In this document: positions 5,431-63,008 of the stretch, piece after piece | How positions within the stretch are numbered: the stretch's first letter is position 1 | Layout: the number at the start of each line of letters is the position of its first letter | Notes under the pieces: generated by a model | Databases searched by the model: none | Told to the model about the DNA's origin: nothing | What the model saw: the letters and a program-made list of their open reading frames with translations, nothing else | Assembly: GCA_016490735.1 (NCBI GenBank) | Contig: JAEMWC010000001.1 | Span: 3,821,001 to 3,885,000, forward strand | Source of the DNA: Pachyseris speciosa | Taxonomy: Eukaryota > Cnidaria > Anthozoa > Scleractinia > Pachyseridae | Direction of reading: 5' to 3' | Length of the DNA stretch: 64,000 bases | Translations under genes and position numbers: made by a program

Positions 5431-6964
5431 CTTCAAACCCACTTTTCCAACTCATTCCTCCACTGGTTGTTGCATTGTCATCGCCGAGCCTGGATAAAAG
5501 GGCCTCCAGCACTTTCATTTTTGCAATTTCCATTCAATTTTCCTGTTCTTCTTCTCGCTTCAGTTTTGAAAGGATTTTTTTATTGTTCATGGGTGCCACA
5601 TGGTCAAATGTGTTGGAAACACCCTCATCTGGTTCTGTTTTGTCTTTCATAAATTCGAGGGATGAAAAAAATGACCAGTCTGACTTGTACACATATTCTT
5701 TTCCGGCAACAGATTTGAGTGAGCCCTTTTGCTTCACTGATTCACATTGAAAGTGGGTAGATAACTTGTGCCATGTTTTGCAAGGTCTTTAATGGTATAC
5801 TTGTCATCAAACTCTTTCGACAATCTTTCCATTGATGCTCTTCTCTGGTCACGATATTCCTTTAGGTTTGTATTCCACAGATGTGGTGTATTTTTGTAAA
5901 ATGCTATAAGAGTCTCCTTCTCCTCATTTGTCATCTCCTTCTCACCTTTTGCCTTCTCCTTTTCTAATTCTTCCTCTATATCCTTTTTCATGAATAACAT
6001 GGAGTTATAAAATTTCCATTCCTTTGAAGGCATTCTTTTGGTGCTGTCACTGTCAGTCAAAGAGTTTTGGTCCAATTCCTTCTTCACGATCCTTCTCATG
6101 GATGTGCGATGATTGTGTATATTTTTTTTTCAATCATGGGCACTGAATACAGATTACCTAGACATGAAATAGGAAGACGGTCAATACCGTTGAGATCAAT
6201 AAATTTGTTTCAGGCCAAGGTGGACAAGGTATGTGCAGTTTTAAAACAAAGAGTTTAAAACAAAGAGGCTAACACTTTCAAAAACCCAAGGAAAATCTTT
6301 ACGTTTAATTTTCGACAACAGGCTTTTGAATTTGTGGTGGTAAAATCATTTAGGTGGCGAGATTCGCCATGTTGTCGCCAATTCGCCAATTGTTCTCCAT
6401 GTAAAGTCTGGCCAAAAGGCTGTCCAGACTTCCTTTGTAAGAAAACAAGAGCACAAAAACGAGAATTGTTTAAACAAAGTGTTCCCTGTTTGCAGAAATT
6501 GTTGGTAACATTATTACATGTAGATCGATATGGTTGAGCCATGCTATCGCAGAGTTAACGATTAGCAAATTGTGGCATGTTTGATTGTGAAATAAGGTAA
6601 AAATGGTTAATCAACGACTCATTCGACAAGTAACAGGGGCCTATTACCGTAAAGTTTTTAGCATAGCACGAGCTTATTATAAATCAAATGCGTGGAGTCC
6701 TTTCATTGTTATTGTCTTAAAAATTGCCATTAAATTGTAATAAGCTTAATAAAATTGCGAAAACTCACAGAGTGCCGCCGGACACGGAGTAAACTAATAT
6801 AACAGCCGTGGAAATGTCAGAAACTTACCTAAATGGTTGCGTAGCTGTTCCTTCAACTGTAGTCTGACATTTCTGCTCGATGACTTAAGCAAATCAGGGT
6901 TCTGTTCCAGGAATTTTATCAACTTAACTGTTTCCTCGTCATTAAATTTTCTTCCGTCCACCAT
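5126..6964 (-). pseudogene. Harbinger accessory DNA-binding protein (MADF/Myb-like), broken
   Basis: This is the second Harbinger gene, whose product usually helps bring the transposase to the nucleus and the DNA ends. A first exon at 6829-6964 (start ATG at 6964, beginning MVDGRKFNDEETVKLIKFLE) ends in a consensus GTAAG donor. The next coding block (about 6099-5734) holds the MADF-like core LIAFYKNTPHLWNTNLKEYR. At about 5790 a one-base slip moves the frame: TWHKLSTHFQCES continues the helix in the new frame. A TGA at 5534-5536 then separates a Lys/Glu-rich stretch from the C-terminal tail, which overlaps the 310-bp duplication. The exon join between 6829 and about 6140 is not resolved. Transcription opposite to the transposase is the usual Harbinger layout. 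Confidence 0.75.
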
Positions 6965-7264: not shown

Positions 7265-9360
7265 TTAAGGAGAAGATACACGACTTTGACCGGAGAATGG
7301 AGCCTCAACGTCCCATGTTCAAGTTTGCCAAGGAATATATGAAGTTTGTAGCCTTTATATTGATGTTCCTTCGTGCAAATAGAGGAGGAAACTGGAAACT
7401 TCATCTTGAATCGCTAAAGACCTTATGCAAGTATTTCTTTGCACATGATCGACTTAACTATGCATGAATGGTACCGCTGCACTTGGCACAAATGGAACTT
7501 CTGGAATCAACTGATCCCGACATACATGAAGAATTCACGAGTGGAAATTTCTGCGTCAACAAGAATGACCTACCTTTTTGCACCATAGGTCCAGACCATG
7601 CAATTGAACATGTAAACAAGACCATGAAGATCCGCGGTGGCCTCAAGGGTTTGACCCAGCAACCAGCCGCTATGACAAGATGGTTTCTTATTGCTCCAGA
7701 ATTGAGTTGCTTGGCCACCGAAGCAGAGGCCACAGTTGGATTACAAACACACAGCTTGACGCATCACCATGATTTGTTAGAGGCTGTTATTACCCGTTAC
7801 GAGGAGAATGTGAAGAAGCTGGAAGATGTATTGAAAGCAAATGATCCATTTGTTAACGAGGAAAATGAACTGATCAAGAGAAAGAAAGGATCGTTGAGCG
7901 TAAACTAAGCTTTTGGAGTCCAATGAAGAAAGCAAACCTTCACACTTGGACTAAATGTTTGGAGTCCAATGAAGAAAGCAAACCTTCACACTTGGAAGAC
8001 CTGAGAGAGAAAAAGAAGAGTAAAACAGCATCTGGTGTTGTTGCTCTTAAGGACGACAAGGGTATTGTTTGCACGTTTTCTCGTTGTGGTTCTTTCCAGA
8101 CCTGAAATTGACCTCAAGGAGAGCATCAGTGAATTTGAATTGGCTGCATTTCCCAGAACGCTGTTCAATTCTGATGGCAACCTTCGCCATGGCGTTGGCA
8201 AGAGTAAGCTAATGAGCATCCTGGAGAGTTCGCTTCCCGACCAACTCCCTGCCCAGGAAGAAGAGCAGCGCCAGCATGCAGGAAGGAGCCAACACAGGTT
8301 CGCAATGGCTGTGATCTCGCCAGTCATTTTCTTGAGATCATTGACAGTAGGTCCAAGGAATGTGATGAGGTCCATGTTGTTTTTCATCGTTATGACATTC
8401 CAGTTTCGCCAAGGTTGCAACAGGCCCATGGTGTACCAAATCTCAGATGGTGCAATCATCGAAAAGATCACTCTCAATCAGCTGCTAAGCAGTAATGTCA
8501 ACAGGGAATCGTTGGCCATGTACTTTGCATCTCATATCCTCGAGTGTGAGAACGACTTGCAGAGGACCTATGTGGTAACTTTGAAGAGTGAATGCAGGTC
8601 CAACAATTTATCTGTCCATCACCTGAACACCACCCAAGAAGAAGCGGTCACACATGCTTCTACATGCCATCGATGCTACAGAGGAAGGAGCAGCATCCCT
8701 CTGTATCCAGAGCCCCGATACAGATGTATTGGCACTGGCCTTATGGAAGTATACAAGTCTCTGCGAAGAAACTTCCGTAGTAGCTGGCGCAGGAGCCAAG
8801 CATCGATCAATTCCACTGGGTCCTCTGTACAACGCTGTAGGGGGTCGTACTGTAGCGGCATTACCAGGATTTCACGCATTCAGTGGTTGTGATCAAATGG
8901 GTACCATATGAAGCAAGTCTAAAATCTCCTGCTGGAATGCCTTAGAGAAAGCCGATGAACAAGTTTTAGAAGCATTTGCAAGGCTTGGAAGCTCTGTGCA
9001 CGTTGAAGATGGCGTGTCTAGAATGCTTGAGCTGTATATGTGCCGGCTATACCTGCCGTCAGTCCAGATTGCAACCGTAAAGGAACTGCATCGGTTGCTC
9101 AGCAAGAAGCAATACCCAGATGAGAAGTTGCCACCAACGAAGGCTGCTCTTCAGCAGATGATTAAACGAGCCAACCATGTTGCTTTAGTGTGGAAGGAGT
9201 GTGGTTCTCCATACCCAGATCTTCCTGCGCCGACATCTCATGGATGGAGTCAAGATGGTGAACGACTGCAGGCTATCCCAACCACCCTTCACCCCTACAC
9301 CTAAGGCTGTCCTGGAACTGGTGAAGTGCGTTTGTAGAGGAAGTTGCACCACTTAAAAAA
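7265..9360 (+). pseudogene. Unnamed metazoan repeat-family protein, 3' part (decayed)
   Basis: This continues the gene interrupted at 1552. FKEKIHDFDRRMEPQRPMF follows directly in frame, then GGNWKLHLESLKTLCKYFF and NYA, where a TGA (7465-7467) stands at a position I recall as Arg, as expected from CpG decay. The block from 7468 (HLAQMELLES, GPDHAIEHVNK, GGLKGLTQQPAAMTRW) is intact for 440 bases. A 45-bp tandem duplication at 7913-8000 and frame changes near 8030-8150 follow. The C-terminal part has a 'HxEEAxT...SPDTDVLALAL...FSGCDQ' layout (8625-8905), like the acidic clusters of PIN/FEN nucleases. A stop at about 8910 precedes a last readable block (8970-9300). The nuclease link is inference from motif spacing. 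Confidence 0.6.
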
Positions 9361-49949: not shown

Positions 49950-50233
49950 TGTTTTTACAAAGACAGCCCTCCCATTCCAACACACTGCCTCCGAGAAATG
50001 CTTAGGCTAACTCTAAAAGAAAATTCTTCCAATTCAATGGAAAGCAATATCTTCAAATTCATGGGACAGCTATTGGAACGAAAATGGCTGTTTCCTTTGC
50101 CAACATATTTATGGCAAAGATTGAAACCGAAATCCAAAGCAAAACCGTCTTTAAACCTACAGTTTGGAAACGCTACATTGACGACACCTTTTCATTGTGG
50201 GACATAAGTAAACCCAACATTGAAACTTTCATT
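49950..50233 (+). pseudogene. Penelope-like reverse transcriptase, part 2 (catalytic YIDD)
   Basis: YKDSPPIPTHCLREMLRLTL, then by a one-base shift at about 50025 KMAVSFANIFMAKIETEIQS, and KRYIDDTFSLWD carrying the catalytic Asp pair (about 50170-50187). It ends KPNIETFI exactly at the ATT target duplication of the 12.7-kb transposon. Confidence 0.88.
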
Positions 50234-50278
50234 CACAGCATGAAAAAAGAGATTTATGGAAAATTAAAGTTGCCGTAA

Positions 50279-50480
50279 ATTTGCGTAAAGTTGGGGCAGG
50301 AAGTTTACGCCACTTCGTAAAGCCTTGTAAAGGTAGATTTACGCCTATCGGACGTAAAGCTTGCGTAAAGGTTGTTGAAAGTAGATAAGCCAGATTTACT
50401 TTCCTTTACGCGCCATATCAAGTTTGTGTTAAGTTGCACTTTATTAGACTGAAAGTAAAGTTAATGTAAAGCTGGTGTAA
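50279..50480. promoter_or_regulatory. Left subterminal CGTAAA motif cluster
   Basis: About seven copies of CGTAAA or TTTACG in roughly 150 bases, in both orientations. The right end has a similar cluster. Such subterminal arrays are typical transposase-binding regions in several DNA transposon groups; binding is inferred. Confidence 0.6.
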
Positions 50481-52531
50481 ACGTGTCCAATCGGATTGTG
50501 CCTGTTTACGTTTTATGTGATGGTTGTTTCAAACCATACCTTTCACAAAACATCGTAATACTACAGAATACTAGCACCATATGAACTCCGGCTCGCAGGG
50601 TATTGCAAATGACATGGTGTTATATGATCTCTTCAATAAGATTTGGGCTGGGCCTGGATGAGTAAAACCAGCGCTAAAAGAATAACGAGAAAATAGTACT
50701 GTTCTATAAATATTTCAATTCTCAATAATTCAAACAATATTTTCCGATCAAACTTAACTCTTGCAGAGTGTTCGTTAAAGGTTCACCCATTGTGCGCTTT
50801 TGTTGTTGTTTCACGATCAAAACCAATACACTTCAACTTCTGTGACAGAGTTATCATAGACTCCATCAAATGATTCCTGGCCACTTGTTGCACGACAAAC
50901 GGGTAAGTAAAGAGGAGTACTGCGACAGCACAACGCAGCCAGCAGCCATGTTGGAATTCAGGATTCGCGTCAGGAGACTGGGAATGAATGAGCCGCTTCG
51001 GTCAACAACCTCAATTGCGGGCTCACAGAAAACCATTATTTTTTATTTCTGGCGGGCACATGGTGGCGTGCAGTTGTGCGAAGGAAACATTTCTTCAGGA
51101 TTTTTAGTTCCATTCCACTTAAAATGATGGTTCACCAGTACAAGAAAAGGGGGATGTGTGCTTTAGTGGAACAGGTAAGCTTTCGTTAAAATCAAATCAA
51201 GTAAATTGTGAAAAAAGAATCGAAATTGTTTATTGTTGATTGGCCATCAGATCGAAGAGTGCGATATTCTATTAACGTGCTAAATCGTAGAACAGCATAG
51301 CACAGTCATAGAATTAGAATCAGACGAATCGTAGACAGCATCAATATTCTTTGTTCTTTAATCTCCTACAATAGGAAAAACTGTAATGCCAACTCGGAGA
51401 ATCGTACCCCTGAATCGGTGGATACTTCTCTGATTTAGCACTTATTGCACTGCTCTCGGCCATGTGCCTTTAAACTGTTCCTCTCAATTCGCCTAAAGTG
51501 AACAAATCAAACCTTTTCATGGTATCATCGCCAATTTTTGAAATGAAATGACAGGTGATTTAAGTTGTACTGAGACTGTTCTAACAATAATGTCTGTTGT
51601 CATGTATGGTGACTAATTCACTGCATCTCTTGGTTGTTTGCTTTAAACAATCATGGTCTAGATTTGGGTGAATTTGAGGATCAGTTTATAGAGTAAGGGC
51701 GTCCGTTCTGGCTTTTAAATTTCAGTGGCTAAGTTTCTGCTGCCTCCTTTGCAGCCCTTCATTGTGCTGGTTCTATTCTCTCTCCTGATTGGATACTCAG
51801 ACACAATAGGAATGGAATGTCCGGCTTAGTTTAAATTGAATGAATGAATATCAAAAGTCAACATAATGCATTGGAATTTGTGGAAAAATAAGTCTTGCTT
51901 AAGGGCAAAACATTTAGAGTGTAAAAATTTATAGCTGCCTGATCAGTATAATTGAAGAGTTTACTGTTTCAGCACATTTCACCTTTAAATCCAAATCTTA
52001 AGTTTCTAAATGCTGTGCTCTGACATACATACTGTATGCTACTGAATATGTATAATAATTTATTGTCTCAGGAACATAAGTCTGTGTATGACTGGCCTAG
52101 ATGCCTGAATTCATTGAATTACCGGTAATTATTTTGCCAGTAGCTGAAGAAACAGAAACAAAAAGGGTTTGATGCACATTAATTATTTTGCTCTTTTTCA
52201 GTTTAGGCTTCAATAAGAAAGTATTACTCCAGTTGGTCCAGTGTTTTGGCTTAAGTTGTAAGTAAATTTGCTGAATTTACGCCTTCAAATCACAAAATAA
52301 GTGTAGAAATACACTTCCAGCAAAGTAATACGGGTACATGTACAACTGTACGGTGTAGTGTAAGTCTGCTTTCCTCTTCGAGAGAGAGCTCTATTGGGGA
52401 GGAAAGCCCAGACCCAAGTGAGCGGTGGAAATCCAGCCTATGTATCTGTGTGCAAATATTGTGTCAATTCAAGTCTGTATGGCATTATTATTGCACAGTA
52501 TACAGAGTGGTTTATTTTCTGTTGATTTTTC
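50481..52531. other. Left arm of the 12.7-kb transposon, no gene
   Basis: Scattered short ORFs (for example 50870-51127) without domains. No further repeats were recognised. Confidence 0.4.
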
Positions 52532-52857
52532 TACGGTGGCTTTGAAGGGACATGCATTTCTCTCACTTTTTTTTGGAATTGATGCGAGTTAGCTTGCGAG
52601 TTAGCTTGCTACTTGGCTTGCGAGTTAGCTTGCGAGTTAGCTTGCAACTTAGCTTGCGAGTTAGCTTGCAACTTAGCTTGCGAGTTAGCTTGCGACTTAG
52701 CTTGCGAGTTAGCTTGCGACTTAGCTTGCGAGTTAGCTTGCTACTTAGCTTGCGAGTTAGCTTGCGACTTAGCTTGCGAGTTAGCTTGCGACTTAGCTTG
52801 CGAGTTAGCTTGCTACTTAGCTTGCGAGTTAGCTTGCGACTTAGCTGCGAGTTACTT
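52532..52857 (+). repeat. 12-bp satellite array (left, inverted partner at 60094)
   Basis: A leader (ACGGTGGCTTTGAAGGGACA..CTCTCAC.., 52532-52583) is followed by about 23 units of GCGAGTTAGCTT/GCGACTTAGCTT with occasional GCTACTTAGCTT and GCAACTTAGCTT. The open frames reading Leu/Arg/Val/Ser or Ala/Cys/Glu repeats through it are by-products of the 12-bp period. Confidence 0.9.
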
Positions 52858-53790
52858 GCAGACAGCTGGAGTCCACGGTTCGAGATCGGGAATTGAACCA
52901 GGTATTTTGTCAGTTGTTTTGCTTTACTCCGGTTTACGAAGTAAATATTTCAACAACTAACGTATTTTATATTGTCGCCAGATTTTCACATTTTTGAAAG
53001 AGAAGAGGAATGTCAAGGAAACCGTGTGTCAGACCTTCAAGGATGAGATGGTAAAGTCATATCTTTATTGATGTTGTGTTTACGTAATATTTATTTTCCT
53101 TCTCGTTAGCTCTGGCTTTTAGGCTCGCGAAAAGCGTAGTTTATTTTTTAAATAAGCTTAAGTAATGTATATGTGGTCACTGATCCAAAGAACATTTTTT
53201 TTGTGTGTGTGTTGACCACCCAAATAGTGTTTCATTGTTGACATATCCAAAAACATCGTTCATATTTATTTGTGTTTGAATTGATTGTCTTCGTATGAAA
53301 ATTAGTGATGATCGTGGTATAAGATCAGTTTCATCTTGTTGCACGGTGTGTCCGGGCTGACTATAACGTACAGATAAACTAATACGTTGTGACTGAATAC
53401 CCCGAGCAAGCTCCGAATTATGTTCAAATGAACTACGAATTTGAAACGCCCATATGGCCATCCGGCCCGGGTTAATGTGTTCCCATGTAGTCCAAGTCGA
53501 TCGTAGTTCAGCTTTCAGAGCTTTGGTAAACATATGCATTCCTGTTCAAAGGTACGTATATAGCATGACAGATGCGTGATTCCTCTGTCTTGCAGTGTAA
53601 CTTGTTCAGAATCTCTTAAAAAATCCATTTGATCTGACGTTAGTGGTTCGGTTCAACTCACACAGGACTCTCAGGACTTGGCTGTAACCATATTGGTGTG
53701 CGCAGAGTTTTTAACATACATCATTTGAGCAAAAAGTTTTCAGTATGTCTGGGATTTTTATCAGAAACACAGGGCTTAACTATGCACACA
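52858..53790. other. Spacer between satellite and palindromes
   Basis: No gene; a minus-strand ORF (53177-53539) has no recognisable domain. Confidence 0.35.
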
Positions 53791-53912
53791 ATCCCCACAT
53801 GACGGAGCAAGTGTTCTCCTCGCAACAGTTATTCGGTTTTTTTTAAAAGTAACTTAAAAAAAAAAAACGAATAACTGTTGCGAGGAGAACACTTGCTCCG
53901 TCATGTGGGGAT
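53791..53912. repeat. Perfect palindrome 1 (45-bp arms)
   Basis: Arms 53791-53835 and 53868-53912 are exact complements (ATCCCCACATGACGGAGCAA...), with a 32-base A/T loop. Confidence 0.95.
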
Positions 53913-53992
53913 GTATTGGCAGGCCGGAAATACACTATGATTAGTGACAACTGTTGTCACTAATCATAGTGTATTTCCGGCCTGCCAATACA
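53912..53992. repeat. Perfect palindrome 2 (40-bp arms, 1-base loop)
   Basis: TGTATTGGCAGGCCGGAAAT... and its exact complement meet around a single T at 53952. It abuts palindrome 1 with no spacer. Such a near-loopless palindrome is unstable in most genomes. Confidence 0.95.
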
Positions 53993-54254
53993 AGCTGTTG
54001 TCTCGTGAATAAAAGGACTTCACCACAATACTAAACAATGAATATTAGTGGAGAATGCCAATAAACGGCTATTACATTTTACTACCGTCTTCAAATTTGT
54101 CCATGTCTTGTTTCATAAAAATCTCGGTTACTTTAAAAATAAAAATAAAAAAGAAAAGAAAAAACAATTTTATATAGCTTAATATTTGTGGTGCATAGGA
54201 AAACACTATGAACAGCACCCAACTCAATGTACCGGCTTTCTTCTTTCTATCTAG

Positions 54255-57200
54255 ATGGATTTTGCAGCTGTGCGAATGGCCAGCGATCAGGACTTCCAAT
54301 CTCTTGGCCTCACAAGAAGAGGAGACATACTTGCTCTGCGATCGTTCGTTTTAACTGACGTGGATGACCCTGATAACGAAAAGGAAGGGAAGAAAAGAAA
54401 GCTCCTAGAACTAACAAAACAACTCGCCTCCAAATCAACGAAAAAGAAAACGGGTTCTCCTAGTCCCAGGGGTACAGTGCGGTCATTAGAGGACGACAGC
54501 CCATCGCTAACGCAACGTTCTAAAAGAATACAAATGGGCTGGATGCACTTTAATGACAAAGAAAAGCGTTACGTTGCCGTGTGCATGGCAAAAGGAGGAG
54601 GAACGAGAGAATTATCATTTCCACTTCAGGCGACATCGGGAGAGATCATGGATGCAATGAAAGATGTATTCTTTCAGGATGGCATGTCCCTATTTGGTCC
54701 TACGCACGAAATGACATTTAAACTAGGAAACTTTCGATGCAAGGAAATAAACGAGGAGTTCACTTTGGCACAGTACATTGCTCAGCACAAATTAACGAAA
54801 GTACGACTGTACATCTTATCGAAAACCAGCATTAGCAAGAAGCCAGAGAAGGTGAGCCCATTTGATTCTGACAGCGAGGACAACACCGACTTACTGACAC
54901 CTGTTTTTGAGACCAAACAGCAGACATCTGATTTGCTTGGCTGTTCGGAGGAAAGGGAATCTCTCAAAGCATCGCAAGAAAAAGAGTGGGTGGGATCATT
55001 GAGCCTAACACCCATTGAAACTGTTGATAGAGTGATGCTTTGCATGTCTGAATGCGATGAATGCCCACCTTTTCCAGATGAGGATGTTTATTTCCAAGGA
55101 TTTGGATCAATGTCAAATGAGTCTTCGGATTCCACTGCGGAATGCGACGAAATCATCATCTCTCCTTTTTGTGTTTCAGAGAAACTACCTCCTATTTTGA
55201 TGGAAGGGGATGAAATGTGAGTAGTGTCAATAACTTGAAGATTTTTCGTTCTGATATCTTCGTCTTTATCTTGAAATGCTAGCTTGGGGTTAGTTTTCTT
55301 GCTGACAGTTTGACATCAGCAATTCTTTTCTTGTCTTTCAGTTTTAGTTGTAATGATAATGAACCACCTGCTCATACACACCAGGAGGATACATTGCATA
55401 CAAGTGACAAAAAGGTAACTCTTTTTTGTTCTCCTAGGAAAAAAATGTATGATTACAATTTTGTTATTGTATAATATTTTTGAAAACTATACTCCATAGA
55501 TGCGACATAACCGGATAGACTATAAATGGGTATCTTGTAGAAAAAGTTCGTAAAAATTATTGCCCATAGACGAAGTTCGCTAACATTTCACAGCATTGTT
55601 GATAAGGCCGCTGATATGTTTGACACAACTTTGCTTTGTAGTCGGTACAGTGAATGGACAAAAACAAAGTAAACGCGAGCCGAAAGCTGCTCTAGCAAAA
55701 AACGGTATGTAGGCAAGCAATACATTTCCTTTTAGGAACAAAATATGATCGATTTTACTGGTCCCTTGCAAACAGGCACGTAATTAATTGTTTTTGAAGA
55801 CACTTCGGCTGGGTTCTGTTCTCGGTGATTGCTCGATCGCAAACAAAAATGGCCTTCCAAGCCAAAACACTGGCAAACTTATTTGTGGAAGCAATTCAGC
55901 ATCTCACAAAAACGGTTACCATGCTGTTGGATCGTTGTAAGATTTCACCAGGTATTGCACGAGTCAACATGATAACCAACCTGATAACCAACAACACAAT
56001 AACCAACCCTAGTAGGCCAGATTATAACCAGACAAACGTTGTCGACACTCGCAAAATATGCAGCGAGAGTAACGTTTCTCATCCATGAGCTGCCTCACGT
56101 GAGCCTTTGATTTTTTTTCTTATGACATATTTATGTCTCTGACTACATTTCTAGGCAGAAGAGCCTACTCGAAATATGGAAAGAAGAGGATCTCCAGGGT
56201 ACCAGTTTCGACAGCGCTATTTAAAAGAGATTATGACTGGCATTGAAGGATCGGAGGTGGAGGAACAGCCCCAACAAGTACGCGAAAGTTTTTAAATTTT
56301 ACTTTCTAGGAACACAAATGGTTTCAGAATGAGTTTTCAAAGCAGTTATTAGTTTTATGTGCGATGGAATGTTCAGTTTAGTTTGAAAGTCGACACGGAA
56401 CATGGATTTTCATAATACCACTATCCCTTAATGGGGTTTTATTTGTTAAACTGCTGTTCAATCCATCGCGTGAAATTAATAATTGATCTCTCTGTTTATC
56501 AAGTCACATTTTATTTTCAGAACATCTCTGCAAAAAGGATGGAAGTTCTTGAGATGGTGGCTGATAATGGAGACACCAGAAGCGTCACCATTGACCGGGC
56601 AAACATCGTCCAAGAAATGCTAAGCCTGTACAGTGACAAAAGTTTAACTGGGTCACTTTTAAATGTTAATTTCTTAAATGAACCCGCGGTGGATTTCGAT
56701 GGGGTAAAGAGAGAGGCATTTACCCTTTTCTGGGAAAAGGTGCTTCCAATATATTTTGATGGTACAAATAGCTATGTTCCACGAATTTCACCTGCTATAG
56801 AAGAAAGTACGTACACAACATTAGCTAGAATTCTAGGTCATGGTTTTCTAATGGTCAGGGTATTTCCAACCTCACTCAATAAAATTTTCTTTACCGCACT
56901 TCTTGCTGGGAAGCAAAGTACAACCGACCACAATTTCCTTGAAGGATTTTTGGAATACGTAAGTTCTTAAGATGGATTAAGGTTGAAAACGATCCTTTAA
57001 GAATGCAATTCGCAACCTCTCTCTGACGAAAATACCGATTTTCTGGTTGACTTTTTATCGGAGTTTGGTGTTACTAAATTGCCAAATGCAAATAACCTGG
57101 AAACAATTTTAGTCAGTGTGGCTAAAACAGAGCTATGGAATAAAGTTGTGATGGCAGCAGATGCCATGAAGCAAGGCCTCTGTGAAGGTGTACTCAAAGA

Positions 57201-57600
57201 GTTGTGGCTTCCGGCCACAAAAGAGTTAGTGTTTCATATTTATAGCTCTTTGTTTATGACAACTGAAAAAGTGCTATCCTTGATTACTGCTGATAACCCG
57301 AACGCAATGACGAAAGGGCAACAAACGGTTTACATGTACTTCAGGAGATATGTTAGAAGTCTAAACGAAAAGGAATTGGCATGCCTGCTTCGATATGTCA
57401 CAGGCAGCTCTACCCCTTCAGTTGCATCTATTAAAGTAATTTTTCATCCATGCCAGGGAAATTTACCACACGTTACGGTACATGCCTGTTCAGGGGTAGT
57501 CGACTTACCCTCAAGTGGGTATGAGAGTTTTCCAGACTTTAGGTCACAGATGGCCGAAGTGTTAAAAAATGCAGACTCCTGGAAGTTTTCGCTGGCTTGA
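54255..57600 (+). pseudogene. HECT E3 ubiquitin-ligase-like gene of the 12.7-kb transposon
   Basis: Coding exons 54255-55216, 55342-55414, 56155-56277 and 56521-57600, all GT..AG and in phase; 746 codons in total. The N-terminus (FQSLGLTRRGDILALRSF) looks SAM-like. A second module reads GWMHFNDKEKRY, AKGGGTRELSF, MKDVFFQDG, LGNFRCKEIN and LTKVRLYILS; acidic linkers follow. The last exon is HECT-sized (about 355 residues): VDFDGVKREAFTLFWEKV, GHGFLMVRVFP, LLRYVTGSSTPSV and the active-site region TVHACSGVVDLP, with the presumed catalytic Cys at 57487-57489. Two in-frame TAA codons (56968 and 56998) break the HECT domain; the reading across them is coherent, so they look like recent nonsense changes or sequence errors. 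It would transfer ubiquitin to unknown targets. ATG at 54255 follows directly on an acceptor, so an upstream exon is possible. Confidence 0.75.
55415..56154 (+). other. Intron of the HECT-type gene
   Basis: 740 bases, GT..AG. The internal ORF at 55825-56088 contains short ATAACCAAC repeats and no domain. Confidence 0.6.
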
Positions 57601-58769
57601 ATAATGTTCTTTTTTGCACATTTGTAAGGTGTAAGCTGTATTGACATTTTCACATACTAGTATGATGAAGCAAAATGTGGAAGCAGATGAGTTTCCAGTC
57701 TATGAGTTTACGTTCTTGTATTGTTTAGTAGCTACTTCTCAAAGGTTAACATTTCAGCTGTGTGGGATCCTTTCATAGCAAAAGACACAACTGTATATGT
57801 TTTTATTAGTGTTTCGTAGCCGCAGTTCATATTAGCTGTATGTGCAAGGACATACTGTAAAGGAGCTTTTATAGCCTTGTTTTGGCCAGTCTGCCATAGG
57901 AAAAACAAAACGAAAAGAAAAGATCGTATTTTCCGTTGTGTTCATATAGGCATTCCTTATTACATATTATACAGCTATTTCAAGACCAACGTCGCCCACC
58001 AAAACGTCAACACTGTAGGACAAAATCGACTGTTAAGTAGCCTAGTTATGAAGACATTTAGCCATTCATTCAGGCTTTGGTGGATCTAAGAGGAGTTAAG
58101 AAAACAAGCATTTCCTTCATCGTAATAAATTAGCAGCCATGAAAATTAAGGACTTCACTTGCCTATACAACCCATTGTTGCTTTCTCATTTTTTTCTTTC
58201 TTTTCGGGATGCTTATCAAGACAGGTCTTTTGGCTTTTGCTCGTTGGACGACGTAACTCTTGAAATAATTGTATTGCTTCTTCATATTCGAATAACAAAG
58301 TTTGGTTTCAGTTCTAGTTGCCCTGATGATTTTAAAATATTCTACATTTGCTAGGACATAAAGTAGATGATTTTTCATAACTTTTATTTCTTATGGTTGA
58401 TGTTCGGTGACGTAAATAAAAGTTCCTCGAAGAACTTGAAACCTCTGTGCACTTTTTGTAACTTCGTCTTGGCATGTAACCTGCACCGCAGACAGTTAAT
58501 AAAGGAAATCTAGCAGCAAGGACGACAATGGCAACGGCAACGAAAAACACCGAAAACAATAGATTTAATGAGCAAAAGCATTTATCGAGGTACACAAGTG
58601 GGTATAATTGCCAAAGATCTACAACCACGAGAAATGTTCGTTGCCGGCGCAGTCTCTAATTTCCGTCTACAGGACAGGTTGGCAAGACCGTGACGTTGTC
58701 ACGCCTGGGAATCCCTCGAATGCATGGTGAACCGCAATTTCAATTAACAACGATAGGTACATGTCTTTT
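57601..58769. other. Convergent 3' region between HECT-type gene and transposase
   Basis: Tail-to-tail intergenic DNA with AT-rich stretches; the ORFs here lack domains. Confidence 0.45.
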
Positions 58770-60026
58770 TTAAAGGGCATCTATATAATCTAACAAATCA
58801 ACGTAAAGTTGAAGGGCTTCATCAGCTGTTGAAGCAATTTCCAGTCCTTCATCTTGCATGATCATTTCGGCAAGTTCTCTGAAATGAGAACAACATCCTT
58901 TCGCTTCCGGTCGCTCTGCACACATATCCTCTGCAATTTGAATTTCATCCATGTCAACTGGAGTCACGTAGTCTTGGGCGTGGACTAACTCCAGAACAAA
59001 ATAAAGAACATCTGGTTTTCCAGATGGAGACTCAACATTGCTAGACGGTCGAATTCTGTGAACATTCCACTCTTCAGCGGCTCTATGTAGTTCCCCTTGT
59101 AAGACATCCATAAAACAGAACTTTAGGCATTCGCAGTGAATAACATTGTCATCATAATACAGACCAGAATCTCTTAAGTCTTTAAAGAATTCAATCCACC
59201 AGTCTGCGCAGCCCTGTCTGAGACGTCCCCACCAGGCCTCTATTCTCTGGTTTGATGTAGATTTTCCAAACATGAAACTTTTGTCACCTGCGAAGTCGTC
59301 AGCCATGGACCGGCGAAAGAATCGCTGAATGGCTGCTATGTTCGAATTCTCAGTTCCCCTATCTCCTCGTACAACGCGTGCGGTGCCTCCCAACTGTCGT
59401 ACATAGTCTAGAAAATACTGAGCTATTATACGAGGGTCATTATTTGATGACGCTACCTCCAGCCATACAATTCTTCTACTAAAGCCATAAATTGCACCGT
59501 GAATACAAAAACCAAATGGCTTTAGTTTATCATACCCGTCTATGTGCCACAAGTAATTCGGACCTTTACTTCTGTATAGTCTTCTTCGTAGTCTCGATCT
59601 AAGTTCCACTCCTTCAGGATCAAAGATCCTTAAGACATGACGAACTACTTCTCGTGTAGTAATAATTCCGTGCTGATTGGTCAACCTTTGATGCATAGCT
59701 CTATAACCCAACAGGCTTCCACTGCCTCTCAGTTCCTCTTCGACAGCTTGTACTACATCATCAAGATCACTCTGGCGCCGGCGTCTTGTACATCCCAAAC
59801 GCCTTAGTATTCGTTTCAAATGCCTCAACGACATACGGATGCCGTGTACACTTACAAGAAATAAGCATATTTCTGGTGCCGTAAATCCAAGATTGAAATA
59901 GTTTTGTATGACCTCCTCTCGCATTAGTGCATTGTTCCTCATCGCGGGAGAATAACTTGGAAGTACTGCTTTTGAGGCCGTACACATGGCAGTTAAAATG
60001 AAGACAGTCATATACGTGGACTCCAT
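58770..60026 (-). CDS. Integrase-like DDE transposase (IS3/retroviral-integrase fold), apparently intact
   Basis: 418 residues from ATG at 60026, without defect. Residues 34-110 form helix-turn-helix segments (EVIQNYFNLGFTAPEI; SLRHLKRILRRLGCTRRRR). Residues 100-150 match the 'GYR..H..L...G' linker of IS3 OrfB (LLGYRAMHQRLTNQHG). The catalytic core has Asp163 (LWHIDGYDKL), Asp222 (VVRGDRGTEN) and Glu263 (SNQRIEAWWGRLR), spaced 59 and 41. A C-terminal part has WNVHRIRPSSN and PVDMDEIQIAEDMC. I recall close, intronless relatives in many fish and invertebrate genomes. It would act in the nucleus on the CACAGCATG ends. The start lies about 70 bp from the right satellite array, which may be its promoter region. 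Confidence 0.88.
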   Translation of the reverse strand: MESTYMTVFILTAMCTASKAVLPSYSPAMRNNALMREEVIQNYFNLGFTAPEICLFLVSVHGIRMSLRHLKRILRRLGCTRRRRQSDLDDVVQAVEEELRGSGSLLGYRAMHQRLTNQHGIITTREVVRHVLRIFDPEGVELRSRLRRRLYRSKGPNYLWHIDGYDKLKPFGFCIHGAIYGFSRRIVWLEVASSNNDPRIIAQYFLDYVRQLGGTARVVRGDRGTENSNIAAIQRFFRRSMADDFAGDKSFMFGKSTSNQRIEAWWGRLRQGCADWWIEFFKDLRDSGLYYDDNVIHCECLKFCFMDVLQGELHRAAEEWNVHRIRPSSNVESPSGKPDVLYFVLELVHAQDYVTPVDMDEIQIAEDMCAERPEAKGCCSHFRELAEMIMQDEGLEIASTADEALQLYVDLLDYIDAL

Positions 60027-60093
60027 GTTGTTTCTGAAGGTAACCAGGCCTAGTACCTAGCAGTGTCACATGGTCTTTTTTAACTTCCAAATC

Positions 60094-60474
60094 GCAAGTA
60101 GCAAGTAGCAAGCTAACTCGCAAGGTAAGTCGCAAGCTAAGTCGCAAGCTAAGTCGCAAGCTAAGTAGCAAGCTAACTCGCAAGCTAAGTAGCAAGCTAA
60201 CTCGCAAGCTAAGTCGCAAGCTAAGTCGCAAGCTAAGTAGCAAGCTAAGTCGCAAGCTAAGTCGCAAGCTAACTCGCAAGCTAAGTCGCAAGCTAACTCG
60301 CAAGCTAACTCGCAAGCTAAGTCGCAAGCTAACTCGCAAGCTAAGATGCAAGCTAAGTCGCAAGCTAAGTCACAAGCTAACTCGCAAGCTAACTCGCAAG
60401 CTAAGTAGCAAGCTAACTCGCATCAATTCCAAAAAAAGGTGAGAGAAATGAATGTCTCTTCAAAGCCACCGTAT
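60094..60474 (-). repeat. 12-bp satellite array (right, inverted partner)
   Basis: About 27 units of AAGCTAACTCGC/AAGCTAAGTCGC, complementary to the left array. It is followed by the same leader in reverse (ATCAATTCCAAAAAAAGGTG...CTTCAAAGCCACCGT). ORFs through it are artefacts. Confidence 0.9.
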
Positions 60475-61590
60475 TTTTCACATGATTGTATTTACATTTC
60501 TTCCATTATAGAAGCTCAAGAGTGATGCATATATTTGGGGGCACAGCTGTCTGCTGAGTAATTTTGGATGAGAGCAAAGGTACAGTGCATGAAGTTATGA
60601 AACCCAATTTTCATTTCTTTTGGTTTAAAACTTTGGTTTACTCTTGGTTCTTTCAAACGAGCTTTACTTTTTCTTTCTTGTCTTAGTAGTCTTTATACAG
60701 TAACTGTTATTGATAGAAGAAATGCAATTATTCACACTTGGCTGTGTTTAGATGTATGTCCCCTTTTAAAACTACTGTAATTATCTTTTTTAAAATAGTG
60801 TGTAGAGAATCTCTTGTGTGTTTATGTGGTTTTCACACAGAGACCATCAAGCATTAGCTCGACAATCCTCTTTATTCTGCCCACCTCTGCTGCTTGCATA
60901 CATGTACTTGCTGACAGTTGGACAATCAGTTTTCAGTTTGGTGCACCTTTTTTGTCGTTAGAACAAAATACATTTAGTGACTTGTTTTTTCATTGCCAAT
61001 CCTTTATAAGTGAATCTATGAGATTTCATAGAAATGCTGAATAGTGTGTGTTCCACCTGTCAGCTCCTCTTTTCATCTTTTCCCCTTTAGTGTGTGTAGG
61101 TGCTTTTTGTTTTTGTTTTTTTTTTCTTTTTTATTCTGACCCAACCTACATGTAATTTAATGTCATTTGTAAATAATTTTCAAGTTCAAAGTGAGCCCTC
61201 TTGATGAGCACTGTAACTACAGCTGTATCAGGGCCAACTTTGCCAGCAAATATGTTTAAATGAAAAAAACTTTGGGAACCAGTCTGCAATTATTCTTTTC
61301 TACTTTTCCAAGCTATGTTATCCTTACATACAATAAATCTGAGACAAATGTAATTGATGACCATGAAAAATGTAACTGGTTTGAAAAGTTGAACTTAATC
61401 ACAAATTTAGAAACTGTAGACTGCATGTTATACATGTACACTGTATGTGCAAACTATACACTTCTGAATCCTTTCATACTGTAATTTTCCTTGTAGCATT
61501 CTAAACCATTTTTTTTTTGCAGTTTTTAGAGCGAAGATGATGAGGAGGAGTCTCATGAACTTGTGGGAACAACAACTTCACTAAGGCTGA
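60475..61590. other. Right arm of the 12.7-kb transposon, no gene
   Basis: AT-rich and T-rich; nothing recognised. Confidence 0.4.
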
Positions 61591-61692
61591 TGTAGACTTT
61601 GAGCAGTCCCTCTTTCTTTCCTTCACATCTTGTGCTTCGCAATCACTCACAAGATTGACGAAGGAAAGAAAGAGGAACTGCTCGCAGTCTTT
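61591..61692. mobile_element. Hairpin MITE remnant
   Basis: TAGACTTTGAGCAGTCCCTC and its rough complement GAACTGCTCGCAGTCT enclose an inverted CTTTCTTTCCTTC pair. I recall this 'GAGCAGTCCC' hairpin as frequent in coral DNA. Confidence 0.55.
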
Positions 61693-62600
61693 GAGGCTGA
61701 TGAGCACTGGTGGACTCCAGTTCCAACCACAGAGCATTATAAATACAACAGCTCCCTTGTGGGTAGTTTCAATGTGTAGTATCCAAAAGGGTAATGGCAG
61801 CCCTGTCAAAATATTTTGTAGTAATGGCCAGCATATAACTGGGGTAGTTGGTAGCAACTGCTACACTTAGAAACCCTTGCCTGCTATTTATTTTAGAGCA
61901 TATCCTGCTGGGCCAGTGTAGTGCCACACTTCCACTTTTGTGTGAAAACACTTTGTCTGATTTGTTGAAAGCTAAGACTTGAGTTCCTCTATAGTTCTGC
62001 TCTATTTTATGTGGTTTATGAAAACAACCTTGCATTTCAGGCTGTACTTTTATTTAGTTCAGGTTTTAATATTGGTATATCCATGAGCAATATGCTCTCC
62101 ACTTTCCAAATTATCCTGTGTACTTTGTAAATATTAATAGTTAATTTCATAGGTTTCCTTTTAACTGATGCAGCAAATCAGTGTTTGTATAAAGCTACAT
62201 GTAGCTGGATTTAGAAACATACAGTAGAAGGGAAACAGCTGTATGTTAAAATTAACTTTTATTGCGTGATTATTGTCATCAGTTTGTAGCAATGAAGAAA
62301 GTTGTTAGAATAACCATTAAAAGCGTTCACTGGTACTGTCATTGTATAGTTAATTTAATCTTTTATTTAGTTTCACAGCCTATTTCTTTTCCAGCCCATA
62401 GGGAATAGTTATATCTACATGTACTGCCCATTAACTAATTGGTTCCCACAGATTCACCACCCAAACCAAAAAAATGGAGTAAAACAACTATAAACAATAT
62501 AGTTATTAGAACCAATATTAACGTACTGTAACATAAATTACAAGTGCAAAGGATCACAACAACTTACTTTTAAAGTGTAGCAAAGGCCACCAAACTGGCC
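61693..62600. other. No gene seen
   Basis: AT-rich non-coding part of the transposon's right arm. Confidence 0.4.
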
Positions 62601-62900
62601 TAAATCTCTACTTTACAACAGCTTTACACAGTGCTTAAAGGCCTCTTGGAGTCTCATTACACTAGCTTTACATTTAAGCGTAAAGGTTGCAATTACAGAA
62701 CGTAAATGTTGCGTAAAGCTTCGTAAATCTAAACTTTACGCCAGCTTTACACAGTGCTTACAGGGCTCTTAAAGAAGTCTCATTACACGAGCTTTACGTT
62801 TACACGTAAAGGTAGCGTAAAGCTGGCATTTACATAATGTAAATGTAGCGTTAAGCTTCTTAAATCCGAACTTTACGGCGGATTTATGCTAACATTACTC
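62601..62900. promoter_or_regulatory. Right subterminal CGTAAA cluster with tandem duplication
   Basis: Two tandem units of about 122 bp (sharing AGCTTTACACAGTGCTTA and GTCTCATTACAC.AGCTTTAC) carry about ten CGTAAA/TTTACG motifs, mirroring the left cluster in composition. Probable transposase-binding region; binding not shown. Confidence 0.6.
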
Positions 62901-62928
62901 CAACTTAAATTCGCCTTTTCATGCTGTG

Positions 62929-63008
62929 ATTGAACAGGCAAATTCACATCACCCAACTATCAAATTCACGGCCGATATCTCTGACACTGAGACTACCCTA
63001 AGTCGAAA
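62929..63008 (+). pseudogene. Penelope-like reverse transcriptase, part 3
   Basis: IEQANSHHPTIKFTADISDT continues the block broken at 50233, then leaves the family after DTETTL and stops. The rest of the Penelope gene is missing. Confidence 0.85.

Follow-up and report, generated by a model that had tools for sequence, protein, structure and literature searches.

IS3EU transposons have TA..TA ends and usually create 6-bp duplications, GingerRoot transposons create 6-bp duplications and mostly have TA..TA ends, and both encode an integrase-like DDE transposase, according to the passages on these groups in PMC10045372. All three features recur in the element described here, for which the same passages offer no precedent in one respect, as they describe no HECT cargo. 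The termini of fungal IS3EU elements read TAYGG..CCRTA, and the sections of PMC12730594 that deal with them describe copies in which the transposase is accompanied by an oppositely oriented enzyme gene (alpha-kinase or TET/JBP) and in which the cargo genes cross transposon lineages, both as found here; the fungal cargo is a kinase or a dioxygenase, whereas ours is a putative ubiquitin ligase, in an animal genome and beside transposases with identities down to 42% to the one described here. The element in question was found in a stretch of 64,000 nucleotides from the coral Pachyseris speciosa (contig JAEMWC010000001.1, positions 3,821,001 to 3,885,000; hereafter, the window). We conclude that it is probably an IS3EU-type transposon, lying at 52532–60473 and nested in another element, with tail-to-tail genes for a DDE transposase and a HECT protein, the latter likely to be an E3 ligase that favors the survival or transposition of the element.

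RING fingers are known in mobile elements, and the RAG1/ProtoRAG transposase lineage has ubiquitin-ligase activity by virtue of an N-terminal RING E3. There, the RING is fused to the transposase, whereas here the HECT domain has a gene of its own. To our knowledge, no cut-and-paste transposon bearing a HECT gene of its own has been described. The titles, abstracts, and passages covered by our literature search, a coverage outside which lie Repbase and the original GingerRoot paper, contained no HECT-bearing transposon. Nothing that held HECT, IS3EU, and transposon together was present among the matches listed, and the literature on IS3EU and ubiquitin contained no HECT transposon by title and abstract. 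None is described in the consulted sections of PMC12062965, and the main text of PMC4255032 has no HECT. Deubiquitinases have been described in mobile elements: in the relevant part of PMC9741609, Helitrons with viral-tegument-like (VTD) or OTU deubiquitinases potentially manipulate the ubiquitin system, as our element would. However, the Helitron domain removes ubiquitin and is part of the Helitron's own frame, whereas the gene found here is a separate one, the product of which would attach ubiquitin; the word “HECT” occurs 0 times in that article.

The association of the two genes was analyzed across the genome of P. speciosa. The search with the transposase of the window reported 100 matches, some of which are pieces of one element, and 98 of 1606 first-look candidates were scored; the resulting counts are lower bounds. 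HECT sequences were located with two queries, the HECT exon of the window (120 places) and the Pfam HECT profile (133 places). With the exon query, a HECT place was present at ≤ 10 kb from 38 of the 100 transposase places, all 38 of them tail to tail, where 0.26 pairs were expected by chance. The Pfam profile contributed 7 further pairs, again all tail to tail, and the two queries together paired 45 of the 100 transposase places (44 of 97 after the pieces were merged; 0.54 pairs expected by chance). The paired transposases were 42% to 100% identical to that of the window. Conversely, 40 of the 120 HECT places (exon query) lay ≤ 10 kb from a scored transposase, and the remainder may be host genes or elements with an unscored transposase. 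The results strongly support the presence, genome-wide in P. speciosa, of a transposon that carries a HECT gene beside an integrase-type transposase. An earlier note on this DNA had proposed such a transposon, and the pairing bears it out; the identity and limits that it gave for the transposon were wrong.

In the window, the element that encloses both genes, tail to tail, is bounded by inverted ends of 315 nucleotides that are 93% complementary, and its arms start with an exact 16-mer (TACGGTGGCTTTGAAG). The tips read TACGGTGG..CCACCGTA, which is the TA..TA (TAYGG..CCRTA) form of IS3EU/GingerRoot, and a 6-bp duplication borders them. The DNA match of the close copies L002–L005 stops exactly at the right tip, 60473, beyond which the flanks are unrelated, and TACGGTGGCTT-type tips with differing flanks were found in 25 of the 34 loci examined (4 of the 34 are longer excerpts of loci already included). 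The 418-residue transposase matched PF24764 (E = 3e-32), of the rva_4/integrase type, and rve weakly, under the cut-off; the stretches WHxDG, GTEN, and NQRIEAWW were recognized by eye. The HECT sequence matched PF00632 at 57001–57597 (E = 6.2e-6), and the convergent arrangement of a HECT-type gene and an intact DDE gene that had been reported earlier was thus confirmed. Judging by its tips, its 6-bp duplication, and its integrase-type DDE transposase, this inner element would be assigned to the IS3EU/GingerRoot type. It is inserted into an outer, CACAG-tipped element, so that the two are nested. A scan of viral contigs detected no relative of the transposase. Two relatives (G000:C1546:99133-99999 and G000:C1337:144128-145003) were located within very long open frames of 1966 and 2076 residues, which are possibly fusions, host genes built from a transposase, or runs of N.

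Twelve places were excerpted to about 10 kb. They were hand-picked and are not a random sample: 4 had a HECT nearby, 4 had diverse transposases, and in 4 no HECT had been seen. Two of the excerpts, L035 and L042, had N gaps and no tip pair; L035 has a HECT gene, with the far end of the element beyond the sequence read, and in L042 the gap falls where the HECT would be looked for. The other 10 and the window gave 11 elements with both ends (the window, L031, L032, L033, L034, L036, L037, L038, L039, L040, and L041). TA-type tips were present in 11 of 11, some with a substitution after TACG. Exact 6-bp duplications flanked 10 of the 11 (TTTTTC, CAAATC, CTCTTG, ATCGAA, CAAATG, AATATA, TAGAAG, TTTAAC, GGAAAG, and AATTTT), the chance of equal 6-mers being 0.00038; L031 differed by a one-base slip. 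HECT sequence was found between the tips in eight elements: the window, L031, L032, L033, L034, L036, L037, and L038, the last with a partial piece. L036 is 5386 bp long, with the transposase and HECT genes both open, and its copy looks young because its inverted ends are nearly identical: up to the point near the genes where they diverge, a single 60-base repeat block is the sole difference.

In L031, the HECT gene was modeled as six exons with GT-AG introns that give an open frame of 876 residues, the HECT domain occupying residues 601–868 (PF00632, E = 1.1e-9). The inverted end of L031 spans the first codons of both genes (about 1050–1125 and 8450–8520), so that transposase and HECT genes have a common 5′ leader and start codon and both proteins start with MESTV. 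In L036, the HECT protein is a single open frame of 795 residues, and both it and the transposase begin with a zinc-ribbon-like stretch, MFC..CGSEV (1492–1566 and 5700–5772), which is above the Pfam cut-off in the transposase only and is a possible docking or DNA-binding module. In the L035 lineage, an open HECT frame was found at the same place in 6 of 6 copies (C309, C665, C1389, C1721, C913, and C838). Ahead of the HECT domain, the SAM-like and UBX-like regions of exon 3 were named by eye; Pfam made no call of either, and the model of the N-terminal exon was weak, with a predicted local distance difference test (pLDDT) score of 55. In the window, exon 3 is a net 96 codons shorter than in L031, in frame, with the UBX-like part largely missing. 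Two candidates were abandoned during modeling. A possible first exon at 51126–51176, outside the inner tips, seemed to tie the HECT gene to the outer element, and it was dropped because in L031 and L032 the gene begins just inside the inner inverted end, with both its start codon and its first exon located there. A 43-bp mini-intron that would explain the stops in exon 6 of the window was rejected, because this stretch is part of a single open exon in L031; the stops are stops. At about 53795–53990 of the window, a HECT intron contains hairpin-like inverted duplications that are absent in L031 and L032.

The HECT domain was above the Pfam cut-off (PF00632) in L031, L033, L035, L036, L037, and the exon piece of the window; no match to this profile was obtained with the C-terminal piece of L034. 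Six of the seven lineages retain the catalytic Cys, namely the window family, L033, the L038/L011–L016 group, L035, L036, and L037. In L035 and L036 it was aligned with that of NEDD4L and UBE3A, and its column was invariant in all 19 rows of an alignment that includes L031. An AlphaFold model of the L031 HECT exon (pLDDT 83.3; predicted template-modeling score 0.76) was compared with known structures by Foldseek, and the three best matches, UBR5 (E 3.7e-11, TM-score to query 0.64), HUWE1 (E 4.9e-11, 0.63), and NEDD4, had E-values of 3.7e-11 to 1.1e-10 and TM-scores to query of 0.49–0.64. The transposon HECT domain is thus well predicted to adopt the HECT fold. Between the HECT exons of L031 and L033, the nonsynonymous rate (dN) was 0.246 and the synonymous rate (dS) 1.59 (dN/dS 0.155), a ratio by which this one pair shows the mark of strong purifying selection; dS in the remaining pairs was either saturated or undefined, or it exceeded 2, a very high value.

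L031 and L033 have transposases that are 56% identical (third positions 0.34) and HECT exons that are 63% identical (third positions 0.50). The transposase of L038 is 76% identical to that of L031 and 44% to that of L037, and its HECT pieces are 39–57% identical to those of L037 and 33% (over 52 residues) to that of L031. By these identities, HECT types are swapped between transposase lineages, which resembles the TET/JBP gene traffic of fungal transposons described in the pertinent part of PMC12730594. HECTs of differing lineages with open frames are merely 22–30% identical. Two relatives of L033, P0123 and P0124 (the latter from Oculina), have RING-like sequence ahead of the HECT within one predicted protein, in P0124 by eye.

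The HECT of the L035 lineage (L035:3975-5054) also has kin among annotated proteins (P0219–P0241). A search with it returned 118 proteins, among them coral and octocoral entries named “G2/M phase-specific E3 ligase,” fish loci that are “G2E3-like” or uncharacterized, and PHD-bearing G2E3 of sharks, rays, coelacanth, Amia, Dallia, and a caecilian (30–39% identity). It is 80% identical to an Acropora “G2E3” entry, 36–39% identical to shark and ray G2E3 over nearly the whole length, 36% identical to that of the coelacanth over 72%, and 30% identical to that of Amia. Vertebrate G2E3, an E3 ligase with PHD and HECT domains, is akin to the L035 lineage in its HECT domain, and differs from the elements here in having N-terminal PHD-type fingers and no transposase. 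In a tree of 39 selected rows, rooted at the midpoint and with long branches for L036 and L037, the G2E3-type rows grouped with L035 and L036 (96/97), apart from NEDD4L and UBE3A, and window-type HECTs formed another clade. Eight PHD-bearing G2E3 formed one clade (97/95) beside five fish rows without PHD (81/65, weak). Given a tree with no firm root, both directions of transfer would fit, that is, a G2E3 derived from a transposon or a G2E3 HECT lent to a transposon. We tentatively suggest, while regarding it as somewhat doubtful, that IS3EU-type animal transposons are standing carriers of HECT ligases, forming an old system of two genes whose ligase passes from one transposon lineage to another, and that the ligase may have escaped to hosts. 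Vertebrate G2E3 would then be a PHD-finger protein that had gained a transposon HECT by fusion, and much of the coral and fish “G2E3-like” set would have the same source.

Table 1. Features of the nested elements and their genes in the window, with the basis of each assignment.
Feature	Position	Strand	Basis or remark
Inner IS3EU-type transposon, 7942 bp, TA..TA ends	52532..60473	.	inverted ends, tips, copy alignment, duplication
Left 6-bp target-site duplication of inner element, TTTTTC	52526..52531	.	
Right 6-bp target-site duplication of inner element, TTTTTC	60474..60479	.	
Left inverted end with 12-bp minisatellite	52532..52846	+	
Right inverted end with 12-bp minisatellite	60159..60473	-	
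IS3EU-type DDE transposase gene, 418 aa, open	58770..60026	-	frame and Pfam
HECT exon 1 remnant, start codon lost	52866..52901	+	alignment with L031 and L032
HECT exon 2, predicted	52982..53050	+	homology to L031
HECT exon 3, SAM-like, beta-grasp-like, and UBX-like regions	54255..55216	+	by eye and weak model
HECT exon 4, predicted	55342..55414	+	homology to L031
HECT exon 5, predicted	56155..56277	+	homology to L031
HECT exon 6, entire HECT domain	56521..57600	+	two in-frame stops; Cys codon 57487-57489
Outer transposon, host of the nested insertion	50234..62928	.	tips CACAGCATGAAAA, joined flanks, arms, 40 scored copies
ATT target-site duplication of outer element	50231..50233 (left), 62929..62931 (right)	.	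read from sequence

The way in which the HECT gene may serve the element can be outlined as follows. The inverted ends would act as inward promoters, by which both genes would be co-expressed, and the HECT protein, to judge from its sequence and modeled fold, would be an active E3 ubiquitin ligase. Its N-terminal modules, which vary by lineage (SAM-like, UBX-like, zinc ribbon, or RING-like), would choose the substrate, and the ligase would act by removing or modifying host factors that hold the element in check, and would not be a mere passenger. The HECT would be unnecessary in cis for the jump and would act in trans, facing outward. We favor such an outward-acting ligase because L039 and L041, which have an intact transposase and no HECT domain, have exact 6-bp duplications, while two-gene copies persist in other lineages.

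Several observations weigh against this reading. The pairing counts come from a partly scored set of transposases, and at 55 of the 100 transposase places neither HECT query detected anything. The earlier note had named a lack of HECT in most other DDE copies as grounds for giving up its proposal, and on this point the outcome is mixed, with a HECT neighbor at 45 places and none detected at 55; eight of the 11 elements with both ends hold HECT sequence, but these were hand-picked. Near the transposases of L005–L010 there is exon-3 sequence without a HECT domain, and the domain is absent from L039, L040, and L041, all of which have exact duplications. Early HECT-gene exons are clearly retained in L039, there is a weak trace of exon 3 in L041 (L027, a shorter excerpt of the same place, matches over 31 residues, E 2e-4), and no HECT-gene sequence was found between the tips of L040. 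The transposase of L041 is 99.75% identical to that of the HECT-bearing L033. Either transposition without a HECT in cis occurs, or the HECT was lost after insertion in L039–L041, and such a loss would weaken the argument for action in trans. The window copy itself is broken relative to L031: its start codon is gone and stops are present at 56968–56970 and 56998–57000, although the codon of the active-site Cys that had been described earlier is present. In the L034/L017 lineage, the catalytic Cys is replaced by Phe, and the estimate of selection comes from one pair with a high dS.

Three other explanations were weighed against the proposed IS3EU-type carrier. The earlier note had assigned both genes to the outer CACAG-tipped element, the limits of which it called certain. 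Much of what it described is real: the outer element has exact 13-bp inverted tips at 50234–50246 and 62916–62928, an ATT duplication, and a genuine insertion into a Penelope-like frame (KRYIDDTFSLWDISKPNIETFIEQANSHHPTIKF...), which is open across the junction once the flanks are joined at a single ATT, and both genes do lie between its tips. However, the gene-owning unit is the inner one, with its own tips and its own TTTTTC duplication. The match of L002–L005 ends at the inner tip, inner-type tips recur at most of the loci examined, and 6-bp duplications border the inner unit here and the other two-tip elements, once with the one-base slip. The outer left end (first 467 bases) was scored at 40 places among 127 candidates, with 87–100% identity, and the match begins at base 1 or 2 in 38 of the 40, a pattern expected of a mobile end. 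Part of the DDE candidates having been scored, none of the 39 other scored copies has a scored transposase within 76 kb; in 3 of the 39 there is one on the same contig, the nearest at 76 kb. The pairing of the two genes between CACAG tips that the earlier note would have expected at many loci was accordingly not found at other loci, as far as this was tested; the equivalent comparison with TACGG-type tips and 6-bp duplications did succeed. The outer element has CAC tips and a 3-bp duplication, features that EnSpm/CACTA-like elements share, and we take it to be EnSpm-like; its arms outside 52532–60473 contain no frame longer than 119 residues and thus no transposase of its own. It is a separate repeat unrelated to the inner transposon, it appears to be non-autonomous at best, and it spread fairly recently, given the similarity of its copies. 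That it owns the two genes is extremely improbable.

A more serious rival accepts that the HECT gene belongs to the element and holds that it restrains or tunes the element, by ubiquitinating the element's own transposase as a form of dosage control, or that it is a non-catalytic scaffold; a self-limiting role is the main rival to our reading. The two genes are probably co-expressed, given the common leader and start codon in L031 and the inverted ends of L036 that reach near both genes, and this speaks for the rival, as do the existence of HECT-less derivatives with an intact transposase and the loss of the catalytic Cys in one lineage. Against it, that Cys is kept in the other six lineages, one HECT pair appears to be under strong purifying selection, and the swapping of HECT types would be easier to reconcile with a ligase that faces outward than with a private regulator; we regard this rival as unlikely, if worth keeping in mind. 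Still less probable, with only a slim chance in our judgment, is a HECT gene that is a mere passenger, a chance capture from a host that has multiplied along with the element. Hosts do have HECT genes, the capture of genes by transposable elements is established, and the kinship with G2E3 is compatible with transfer in either direction. A passenger would nevertheless hardly be expected to keep a fixed orientation beside transposases 42% to 100% identical to that of the window, to persist as open frames in lineages with such divergent HECTs, or to show a dN/dS of 0.155 in the single measurable pair.

The proposed IS3EU-type carrier with its own HECT ligase points to a means by which a eukaryotic transposon could influence the proteins of its host. 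It may also explain part of the “G2/M phase-specific E3 ligase-like” annotations in corals and fish, and it opens to testing the question of where vertebrate G2E3 obtained its HECT domain.

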